Below, piece after piece: positions 13,444 to 22,225 of a DNA stretch of 37,213 bases. Positions within the stretch are counted from its first letter, which is position 1; each line of letters opens with the position of its first letter. Below the pieces are notes generated by a model that worked only from the letters and a program-made list of their open reading frames with translations, made no database searches and was not told the DNA's origin. Source of the stretch: Halorubrum aquaticum (GTDB lineage Archaea > Halobacteriota > Halobacteria > Halobacteriales > Haloferacaceae); the NCBI RefSeq assembly GCF_900113615.1, contig NZ_FOPZ01000024.1, positions 1 through 37,213 on the forward strand. The letters are read 5' to 3'. The position numbers and the translations under genes were made by a program.

Positions 13444-13571
13444 CCGTCGGAACGGGGGCGGCGGGTGGCGACGACGCTCCACGATGGATACTACTCGGCG
13501 CACACGAGATGGCGGACCGGCGCGCGTGAGACGAGGGACGGAGTCCCGAGGAACGCGTGCGAGGGAGCAGC

Positions 13572-13606
13572 GACCGCGCCGCCGAGCGGTTTCCGGCGGC
13601 GCGGTC
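13572..13606. repeat. Perfect 13-bp hairpin
   Basis: GACCGCGCCGCCG (13572-13584) is exactly complementary to CGGCGGCGCGGTC (13594-13606) across a 9-nt loop AGCGGTTTC. All but one of the 13 pairs are G-C. There is no T tract after it on either strand, so it is not an obvious terminator. It lies ten bases before the 20-nt dispersed repeat at 13617. Confidence 0.75.
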
Positions 13607-13616
13607 GGTGCGAGGT

Positions 13617-13636
13617 TGGGGAGGCGTGAGGTGCGG
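13617..13636 (+). repeat. 20-nt dispersed repeat, copy 1
   Basis: TGGGGAGGCGTGAGGTGCGG here is identical over 20 bases to the reverse complement of 20743-20762. Both copies lie in gene-free DNA next to G-C hairpins and short tandem repeats. Confidence 0.8.
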
Positions 13637-20057: not shown

Positions 20058-20609
20058 ATGTCGCTGGCAGCCGCCACCCGCGAGACGGTCCGAGAGCACC
20101 CGTTCCTCCTCGACGCGCTCCGCGCGGGAACGCTGAACTACAGCGCGACCGCCGCGTGGCTCGTCGAGCGCGGCGGGCTCGACGGCGACGCCGACGCGGT
20201 CGCGACCGCGCTCCGCCGGTTCCGCGAGGACCTCCCGGCGTACGCGACCGCGGACCGGACCGCGAGCGTCACGATGCGGAGCGGCGTCGGGGTCGTGACC
20301 GACGCCGAGGCGGACGGGGTGGGAGAAGGGGTAGACGGCGAGCCGCTCCTCCGGGTCGGCGGCGCGGCGGTCGTCTCCGAGGGCTCACACACCGCGCTGC
20401 TCGCGACCGGCGGGGTCGACGCCGCGGCGCTTTCGGCCGCGCTCCGTCGGCTCGACGCGGTCGACGTCGCGGTCGCGGCCGCGGGCGTCGCGGTCGGGGG
20501 AGGCGACGACGGCTCGCTCGTCGTGATCGTGGACCGTCGCGACGGCGCGACCGCGCTGCGAGTCGTCGAGGACGCGCTGGCCGCGGTCCCGGGCGTCGAC
20601 GGCGAATAG
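20058..20609 (+). CDS. Unknown small protein, possible DUF7523
   Basis: A 183-aa Ala/Val/Asp-rich soluble protein. The first 70 residues are helical (LAAATRETVREHPFLLDALRAG, LNYSATAAWLVERGG) and look like a helix-turn-helix-type bundle. The rest reads as a beta-alpha-beta unit with a GGVDAAALSAALRRLDAVDVAVAAAG stretch broken by turns, and GSLVVIVDRRDGATALRVVE, like an ACT-type fold. From memory the architecture is that of a haloarchaeal DUF7523 family; I cannot verify this. Start at ATG 20058 (MSLAAATRETV) preferred over ATG 20031, whose extra residues PTARTRAG are unlike a folded protein. Divergent from cbiX by 137 bases. Confidence 0.65.
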   Translation: MSLAAATRETVREHPFLLDALRAGTLNYSATAAWLVERGGLDGDADAVATALRRFREDLPAYATADRTASVTMRSGVGVVTDAEADGVGEGVDGEPLLRVGGAAVVSEGSHTALLATGGVDAAALSAALRRLDAVDVAVAAAGVAVGGGDDGSLVVIVDRRDGATALRVVEDALAAVPGVDGE

Positions 20610-20641: not shown

Positions 20642-20742
20642 GTGTGAAGCGAGAAACGCGGTTGTGGTGAACCCTTCCGAAGCCTCAGTCGCGAGGCGCT
20701 ACGTGCCTCCGGTCCCTCCCCGCTCGCGAGGATGCGATCGTA

Positions 20743-20762
20743 CCGCACCTCACGCCTCCCCA
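20743..20762 (-). repeat. 20-nt dispersed repeat, copy 2
   Basis: On the minus strand this is TGGGGAGGCGTGAGGTGCGG, identical to 13617-13636 on the plus strand. Confidence 0.8.
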
Positions 20763-20810
20763 GCCTCGCTGCTCGCGACTCGCGGCTCCGCCGCTCGTTG
20801 TTCGAGGTGC

Positions 20811-20842
20811 TCGCGTCGCTCGCACCTCGCGTCGCTCGCACC
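20811..20842 (+). repeat. 16-bp tandem duplication
   Basis: TCGCGTCGCTCGCACC at 20811-20826 is repeated exactly at 20827-20842, and a third diverged unit follows to about 20857. Confidence 0.75.
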
Positions 20843-20971
20843 TCGCCCCGCTCGCAGCGTCCCTCGCGCGGTCGTTCGCGGCCCGGTGGGCCGCTCACGG
20901 CACGCGCCGCCGCGAGGAAACCCGGTTCCACAACCGAGTCCTTTTCGGTGCGGGGCGTAGATTCGCTCCGC

Positions 20972-22225
20972 ATGTCCAGAGTCACGGTCGCGGACGTCGA
21001 GGCCGCGGCGGCGCGGTTCGCCGACGCCGACATCGTCCAACGCACGCCCGTCCAGCGGAGCCGGTCGCTCTCCGAGCGATGCGGCGCGGAGGTCCGACTG
21101 AAGATGGAACACCTCCAGCGAACCGGCTCGTTCAAGCCCCGCGGGGCGTACAACGCGATCTCGCGGCTCGTGGAGTCGGAGCCGTCGGTGGACCGGGTCG
21201 TCGCCGCGAGCGCGGGAAACCACGCACAGGGGGTCGCGCTCGCGGCGACCGCGGCGGGGCTCGACTCGACGATCGTGATGCCCGAGTCCGCCCCCGGCGC
21301 GAAGATCGAGGCCACCCGGTCGTACGGGGCCGACGTGGTGCTCGAGGGGGCCGTCTTCGCCGAGGCGATGGACCACGCGCGGACGCTCGTGGACGACCCG
21401 ACGACGCGGTTCGTCCACGCGTTCGACGACCCGGACGTCGTCGCCGGACAGGGGACCATCGGGCTGGAGGTGCTCGAGCAGGCCCCCGACGTCGACACCG
21501 TGCTCGTCCCCGTCGGCGGCGGCGGACTCGCGGGCGGGATCGCGACCGCGATCAAGGCGCGTGATCCGGACGTGCGGGTCGTCGGCGTCCAGACCGAGGG
21601 GGCCTCGACGCTCTCGGAGAGCCTCGCGGCCGGCGAGCTCGTGACCCGCGAGGAACCGGACACGATCGCCGACGGGATCGCCACGGGCGGGATGAGCGAC
21701 CTCACGTTCGACCTGCTCGAGACGCACCTCGACGGGGTGGTCGTCGTCAGCGACGACGACGTGGCCGCCGCGATCCTGCTGCTCTTAGAACGCGCCAAGC
21801 AGATGGTCGAGGGCGCGGGCGCGACCGCCGCGGCCGCCCTCCTCGACGACCGGATCGTCGAGGAGCTCGGGCTGGCCGGCGAGACGGTCGTCCCGCTGCT
21901 TTGCGGCGGCAACATCGACATCACGTCGCTCCAAGAGGTGTTGACGCACGCGTTGGTCGACCGCCACCAGCTGGTCGAACTCACCGTTCGCATCGACGAC
22001 ACGCCGGGGAAGATGGGCGAGATATCGACGCTGATCGGCGGCGAGCGCGCGAACATCCGCACCGTCCGCCACGAGCGGAGCCGCCCGGACCTCCCGGTCG
22101 GCGACGCGGACCTCGTCTTCGAGGTGGAGACGAACGGCCCCGCCCACATGGAACGCGTCGTCGACGCGGTCCGCGAGGCGGGCTACGCCGTGACCTCGCG
22201 GACCGACATCGACGCCGACCGGTGA
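20972..22225 (+). CDS. ilvA: Threonine ammonia-lyase (biosynthetic type with ACT domain)
   Basis: A 417-aa fold-type II PLP enzyme converting threonine to 2-oxobutanoate, the entry to isoleucine synthesis. The PLP lysine is Lys55 in SFKPRGAYNA; SAGNHAQG (near 82) binds the substrate carboxylate and GGGGLAGG (near 187) binds the PLP phosphate. The C-terminal 80 residues form an ACT domain (LVELTVRIDDTPGKMGEIST), the usual site of allosteric control by amino acids. Length fits the family of about 400 aa. The frame extends to 20732, but that part is repeat DNA; the ATG at 20972 gives MSRVTVADVEAA. Its promoter must lie in or next to the inverted-repeat segment; CTTTTC at 20941-20946 is the nearest T-rich block. 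Confidence 0.95.
   Translation: MSRVTVADVEAAAARFADADIVQRTPVQRSRSLSERCGAEVRLKMEHLQRTGSFKPRGAYNAISRLVESEPSVDRVVAASAGNHAQGVALAATAAGLDSTIVMPESAPGAKIEATRSYGADVVLEGAVFAEAMDHARTLVDDPTTRFVHAFDDPDVVAGQGTIGLEVLEQAPDVDTVLVPVGGGGLAGGIATAIKARDPDVRVVGVQTEGASTLSESLAAGELVTREEPDTIADGIATGGMSDLTFDLLETHLDGVVVVSDDDVAAAILLLLERAKQMVEGAGATAAAALLDDRIVEELGLAGETVVPLLCGGNIDITSLQEVLTHALVDRHQLVELTVRIDDTPGKMGEISTLIGGERANIRTVRHERSRPDLPVGDADLVFEVETNGPAHMERVVDAVREAGYAVTSRTDIDADR

Follow-up and report, generated by a model that had tools for sequence, protein, structure and literature searches.

The segment upstream of ilvA

We analyzed a 37,213-nucleotide stretch of the Halorubrum aquaticum genome, referred to here as the window. 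At position 20972 of the window begins ilvA, which encodes threonine ammonia-lyase (TIGR01127, 449.9 bits, above the cut-off). The gene on the other side of the intergenic segment specifies a DUF7523 protein and ends at 20609. Between the two genes, at 20664–20913 on the plus strand, lies a 250-bp element that ends 58 bp upstream of the ilvA ATG. Its boundaries are set by the end profiles of a repeat family and by an empty site with the same boundaries in a relative, genome G033. Orientation is given by box A, whose reading on the plus strand is CACCTCACGCC...; it is the minus strand that folds.

Read on the ilvA strand, the family skeleton comprises a left end, an optional P0 stem, a C-rich linker, box A, the P1 hairpin, box B, the P2 hairpin, and a right end. 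In the ilvA copy, the left end (20664–20690, plus) is diverged from the family consensus GCGG(T/C)GAACACC(G/T)CCAAAGCCCCAG, which is based on a profile of 213 left ends, with both ends present in 118 copies. Comparison with other copies identifies 20686–20736 (plus) as a degenerate form of the optional P0 stem region. Box A, with its conserved core CACCTCACGCCTCCCCAGCCTCG, occupies 20746–20768 (plus). The P1 hairpin module (20769–20859, minus), assigned from the module parse and the minus-strand fold, is unusually long in this copy and contains several GA/GA steps on the minus strand. Box B, TCCCTCGCG, follows at 20860–20868 (plus), and its GAGGG columns are invariant on the opposite strand in our alignment A1. 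The P2 hairpin module, with a GA/GA internal loop, spans 20869–20905 (minus) and is supported by covariation in 44 copies and by a match to our covariance model R1. Finally, box C and the right end (family GCGCCACCGC) lie at 20904–20913 (plus), as defined by a profile of 187 right ends. Model R1 matches the ilvA copy at 20746–20791 and at 20823–20913.

An earlier, sequence-only reading had bounded the segment by exact 9-bp inverted repeats. These arms exist (CGGTTGTGG at 20659–20667 and CCACAACCG at 20928–20936), and each occurs once in the window. Their role as bounds does not survive: dinucleotide shuffling of the intergenic region yields at least one such exact pair in 286 of 500 trials, and the 31 bases from 20660 onward are found at a single place in the genome, their own, even at 3 mismatches. 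The right arm, in turn, sits in a conserved promoter-side block (20926–20945, plus) at about −46 of ilvA that is common to 26 of 30 Halorubrum ilvA loci, with or without an upstream repeat. The element proper spans 20664–20913 rather than 20659–20936. The right arm does end 36 positions before the ATG at 20972, as had been stated, but the promoter-side block lies outside the element proper. Other features described earlier are present, namely the hairpins, the 16-bp tandem duplication (20810–20841, plus, inside P1), and an exact 20-mer at 20743–20762, whose reverse complement at 13617–13636 is the segment's longest exact repeat elsewhere in the window. This shared motif is far above chance: it is the core box of the family.

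The short distance to ilvA, confirmed as a threonine ammonia-lyase gene, would suit a structured regulatory leader, one of the two options of the sequence-only reading. The repeat occurs at roughly 113 places at other genes, and its position relative to ilvA shifts within the genus. Specifically, among 30 ilvA loci, the repeat lies upstream in five close relatives including the host, lies downstream in 18 more distant genomes, and was not seen in 7 (one of these loci is cut short). Given that the −46 block also lies outside the element, we attach almost no credence to the leader reading. The ilvA copy lies immediately before the promoter-side block; control of the gene need not be among its roles.

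Two further copies lie in the window. The second (13517–13633, minus; model match E 1.8e-4) possesses boxes A, B, and C and different hairpins, and it is where the shared 20-mer comes from. The third (1–177, minus) is cut by the contig start, has its left end at 151–177, and carries a nested two-hairpin module at 13–62. A candidate at 958–1038 was rejected, as its model match is weak (E 0.029) and no box A could be read in it. We note that contigs of the host assembly, the window start included, often end inside copies, and thus that the repeat breaks short-read assemblies.

A family with a fixed skeleton and sharp ends

The core 20-mer, formed by the first 20 bases of box A, occurs at 113 places in the 3.18-Mb host genome at up to 2 mismatches, and the reversed control occurs at 0. 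We extracted 267 distinct copies, in 229 of which both boxes could be parsed. The ends are sharp: information is near zero immediately outside both of them (187 right and 213 left ends). The end profiles contain a terminal inverted pair, GCGGTG/CACCGC, that is short and variable. Both ends could be placed in 118 copies; their median length is 261 bp, and direct repeats in the flanks, as a target duplication would leave, are no commoner than in a permuted-pair control. The sequence-only reading had offered a non-autonomous element as its other option, to be judged by copies with the same ends and by empty sites in relatives. That option held up. Both were found, in the form of many copies with common ends (other than the proposed ones) and an empty ilvA site in G033, and the outcome named as decisive against it, that of neither, did not arise.

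The core is present in 30 of 30 sampled Halorubrum genomes, at 14–195 places each. Outside the genus, it is found in 10 of 118 other genomes of the family, three of which have 58, 44, and 7 places and seven of which have 1–3, compared with one place in each of three genomes for the reversed core. Other named loci that carry the repeat belong to Haloparvum sedimenti, Halobellus captivus, and Halorussus litoreus. The minus-strand covariance model reaches further: at E 1e-3 it matches 55 of the 195 genomes from the order, and these belong to 14 of 66 genera, with several single near-limit matches that may be due to chance. Twelve matching genomes (7 genera, 5 families) examined further with the model have from 1 to 59 copies each. 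Copies in other families, read individually, keep GGCGCGCG, CGCGAGGGA, and GGYTGGGGAGG around unrelated hairpins. In another genus of the host's own family (g11), a low-copy version (L148, L150, L351, and L332) is found repeatedly with a pterin-binding/Mur-ligase gene on one side and an RNase P p30 gene on the other (Pfam assignments), and thus is inherited in place there.

Individual copies display additional architecture. A nested module of the form GCAGCGAG..hairpin..CTCTGGCAGCCGGCG..hairpin..CGCCGGCGA occurs within P0, P1, or box B, facing either way; its carriers include the third window copy (13–62, minus), L063, L064, L088, L095, L096, L099, L115, and L120. This arrangement recalls the SMR-A elements found inside PATEs. 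Box A is amplified in tandem in L057 (G000:C8:192-301) and L005 (G000:C1:103907-103995): 15-bp units are repeated several times in one copy and 23-bp units four times in another. The left end is repeated as units of about 55–60 bp, each with its own CCAAAGCCCCAG motif, in L007 (minus), L131, and L138. Lastly, TTTATAAATA-like boxes lie just beyond both ends of many copies in the main Halorubrum clade (L129, L131, L138, L140, and other copies downstream of ilvA) and are absent in the host's clade.

Changing hairpins, persistent pairing, and the folded strand

The stems of the family are hypervariable: the 229 parsed copies include 182 different P1 and 213 different P2 sequences. Pairing nonetheless persists. 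Specifically, 91 of the 201 distinct P2 modules can form a strict Watson–Crick stem/2x2 loop/stem arrangement (shuffled mean 10.4), as can 25 of 165 P1 modules (shuffled mean 3.0). In 44 copies, picked from the 229 by module length so that they could be aligned, the P2 covariation score is 0.424, compared with 0.122 +/- 0.016 for shuffled and at most 0.077 for slid partners; 92.5% of cells are paired, and two-sided changes occur at 9 of 11 pairs. RNAalifold, applied to alignment A1, recovers P2 and misses P1 because the P1 register varies between copies.

Three independent features agree on the minus strand as the one that folds: tandem G.A mismatches, GNA triloops, and G.T wobbles. GA/GA makes up 146 of the 156 internal 2x2 loops when these are read on the minus strand and 1 when they are read on the plus strand. 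By a scan that favors shorter loops on ties, the triloops of P1 are GNA in 57 of 74 cases on the minus strand versus 3 on the plus strand, and those of P2 in at least 35 of 120 versus at least 5. Among single mismatches, G.T was the combination on the minus strand in 20 cases and on the plus strand in 3, and 23 more were of different kinds (two-sided binomial P 0.0005). In other families, triloops are GNA in 13 of 17 cases, at least two G.A steps are present in 14 of 29 parsed P1 hairpins, and 12 of the 29 form a ladder of three tandem G.A steps with the pair order WC, GA, GA, WC, WC, GA, GA, WC, WC, GA, GA, WC, WC. The pair tally for these hairpins, 12 G.T versus 1 A.C, is a biased test, as the score favored G.T and G.A over A.C; the single-mismatch counts given above are free of this bias.

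Is the folded strand RNA? A structured noncoding RNA family encoded on the minus strand, or structured mRNA ends, selected at the RNA level and brought to high copy number by duplication of a useful RNA, would account for the covarying helices and for G.T wobbles confined mainly to one strand, as G-U pairing would predict. Folding energies point the same way for the ilvA copy: with RNA parameters, the minus strand has a z of −2.59 (2 of 200 shuffles as good) and the plus strand a z of −1.94, and with DNA parameters the minus strand (z −0.79; 38 of 200 shuffles as good) is no better than shuffles, by energy models that handle tandem G.A steps poorly. The loops argue otherwise, being mostly of three bases, GNA in P1, with few GNRA tetraloops. 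An Rfam search matched no family at the element, and an ASdes hit (E 0.0041, under the gathering score) was set aside, as it lies at 20379–20431, inside the upstream gene. Loops of the d(GCGNAGC) type, like PyGAPu steps, have unusual stability in DNA. That GNA loops of three bases and GA steps prevail here tentatively suggests that the folded strand is DNA rather than RNA, a choice that depends on how stable these loop types are in DNA. Taking the positional evidence below into account as well, we regard an RNA-level explanation as possible but less likely.

Genomic position and turnover

Using a simple gene caller, we find 220 of 221 copies to be intergenic; the exception, L147, is a stray motif match. 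Outside the loci sampled through ilvA, the neighboring genes are convergent for 81 of 180 copies, tandem for 67 (36 in one orientation and 31 in the other), and divergent for 32. By comparison, the 220 gaps of at least 200 bp in the named loci, a set that includes the copies themselves, are convergent in 59, tandem in 94, and divergent in 67 cases. This preference for convergent gene pairs counts in favor of the RNA reading. The RNA reading also draws on the low-copy versions in other families and on the long persistence of the repeat on the 3' side of ilvA; the 18 of 30 loci with a repeat after the gene show that some positions are old. Against it stand the flanks, which carry nearly no information past the ends and contain no consistent promoter, and the absence of an orientation preference at tandem genes (the 36 versus 31 above). 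An apparent antisense preference there (54 versus 35) disappeared upon removal of the 22 ilvA-locus copies. Presence and absence among close relatives likewise speaks against the RNA reading.

Several loci illustrate that turnover. At the G033 ilvA locus, the host flanks align unbroken at 20663/20914, save for 14 unrelated bases; the site could represent either the state prior to insertion or a loss. Genome G022 has an apparent remnant of the right end at ilvA. At another site (L006), the host alone carries a copy: the gap between flanking probes is 395 in the host versus 102–159 bp in six relatives, whose alignment shows no element. At a third (L004), the host (G000), G001, and G012 possess copies with different hairpins, and G033 is empty. 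Both flanking genes match a host element locus for only 5 of 130 named copies, by a count in which about half of the host places are represented, through loci with long flanks. Copy positions mostly differ between species.

Modules also turn over within copies. Among host copy pairs that share P1, 20 of 25 differ in P2, and the ilvA copies of G000 and G006 have the left part and P2 in common and different P1 hairpins. These patterns suggest module exchange by gene conversion. In addition, a host copy (L002) and its G006 counterpart (L300) are nearly identical together with their intergenic surroundings, and the sequence at this place is unrelated in three other relatives, a hint that the whole segment was recently exchanged.

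A host-serving DNA structural site, involved in nucleoid organization, supercoiling, or recombination and kept by selection in the manner of BIME/REP sequences, could explain why every sampled Halorubrum genome carries the repeat. Chromosomal confinement fits as well. In G024, the 50 copies listed, of 53, are all on the chromosome contig (P 0.003 given its share of bases). Using one copy as query, 2 plasmid records and no phage record were matched, and one exact core pattern matched no viral contig, searches that diverged copies would escape. Against it stand a copy number that varies from 14 to 195 within one genus, positions that mostly differ, and the lack of polarity along the G024 chromosome. 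In G024, orientations do not cluster (runs P 0.56; 50 of 53 places), and an orientation bias suspected elsewhere proved to be an artefact of the order of forward and reverse places. We consider a structural site unlikely. The absence of orientation clustering in G024 also means that there is no lagging-strand bias of the kind described for IS608 targeting (PMC6006769).

Search for a mobilizer

We searched for an enzyme or an autonomous partner that could mobilize the repeat, and the surveys that follow yielded neither. The Y1 transposase (PF01797) is absent from 11 of 52 Halorubrum genomes, including the high-copy genomes G014 (122 places) and G001 (128), and copy number shows no link with Y1 genes. 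At 16 Y1/TnpB loci (6 Y1 and 10 TnpB), drawn only from the genomes of the Y1 and TnpB surveys, no model match is better than E 0.66. We rejected a link to IS200/IS605 on these grounds. A search for an autonomous partner through left ends, covering 100 of the 113 box A places, found that for 59 of 70 left ends a box A follows directly, no more than 600 nt away; among the 11 others, at least one has a copy according to the covariance model. Neighboring genes formed 16 clusters that recur at four loci or more; Pfam scans of ten of these identified ordinary genes, with no transposase among them.

These results bear on the possibility that the repeat is a PATE-like relic of IS200/IS605-type transposons, consisting of ends without a transposase gene. 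Palindromes, lack of target duplication, and nested small elements are shared with the Haloquadratum PATEs as portrayed in PMC3119063. The definition given there excludes terminal inverted repeats, which are present here in short form, and neither the 6 Y1 and 10 TnpB genes nor the copy numbers connect the repeat to such transposons. We deem a relic of this type very unlikely.

Comparison with known repeats

We found no description of the repeat in the databases or open-licence literature searched, and the core 17-mers appear as text in no paper there. The repeat resembles SMRs, PATEs, and REPINs, yet for each of them, as published, a defining feature that we tested does not hold here.

SMRs of Haloquadratum walsbyi are 80–110 bp and commonly >95% identical within a type (PMC3119063). 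They carry terminal inverted repeats, leave target sites unduplicated, lack a related transposon, lie between genes or nested in other elements, and move in an enigmatic way. Our 118 copies likewise show no target duplication relative to the permuted control, intergenic position and nesting recur here, and short inverted ends are present in the profiles. Unlike SMRs, the present repeat measures about 260 bp, spans several families, and combines hypervariable stems with a conserved skeleton and structure; high identity within a type is not what the 182 P1 and 213 P2 sequences among 229 copies display.

PATEs, in the same paper (PMC3119063), are palindromic, too short for a transposase, devoid of target duplications, heterogeneous in type, and hosts to smaller nested elements, all of which applies here. 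They differ in lacking terminal inverted repeats, whereas our copies read GCGGTG.../...CACCGC, and in having ends in common with IS605-type transposons, which the 6 Y1 and 10 TnpB loci (best E 0.66) do not reveal for this repeat.

The REPIN/RAYT system, as summarized in PMC3116915, similarly involves high-copy extragenic hairpin repeats for which single-strand movement has been proposed. In contrast to REPINs as depicted in that summary, the haloarchaeal repeat needs no RAYT/Y1 (11 of 52 genomes have no PF01797), is far longer, and has conserved unpaired boxes and changing stems rather than conserved palindromes.

MITEs, finally, are also short, non-coding, and abundant, with inverted ends. 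For the present repeat, we see no parent transposon with matching ends and no target-site duplication above control, and structure rather than sequence is conserved.

A repeat recognized by structure?

A fixed skeleton surrounds changing hairpins, pairing persists with a minus-strand signature, and many intergenic copies vary in presence and absence. We interpret the ilvA segment as one copy of a dispersed, non-autonomous, structure-recognized haloarchaeal repeat with recombining hairpin modules, a reading to which we assign even chances. The notion is that the spread of copies would involve a trans-acting enzyme that recognizes the minus strand when it is single and folded, most likely as exposed DNA. 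If so, structure, not stem sequence, would be selected. Our failure to detect a mobilizer in the surveys above, the lack of target duplications above control and of a lagging-strand bias, the unremarkable DNA-parameter fold of the ilvA copy, and the age of some positions all count against this reading. The conserved boxes may in turn let copies swap hairpin modules by gene conversion. More tentatively, and with somewhat less than even confidence, we propose a class of haloarchaeal mobile elements defined by single-strand architecture: a conserved box skeleton, hairpins with G.A steps (up to the three-step ladder) and GNA triloops, recognition as single-stranded DNA by a putative enzyme, and exchangeable stems.

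For annotation, the practical consequence is that such segments are not to be taken as gene-specific leaders. If a structure-recognized repeat is the right reading, many assembly breaks would be explained, and the family would point to an enzyme acting on folded single strands. A repeat selected as a fold, not as a sequence, would make up a sizeable part of the intergenic space of Halorubrum, and each genome of these polyploid archaea would offer about a hundred natural replicates for measuring gene conversion and compensatory change.
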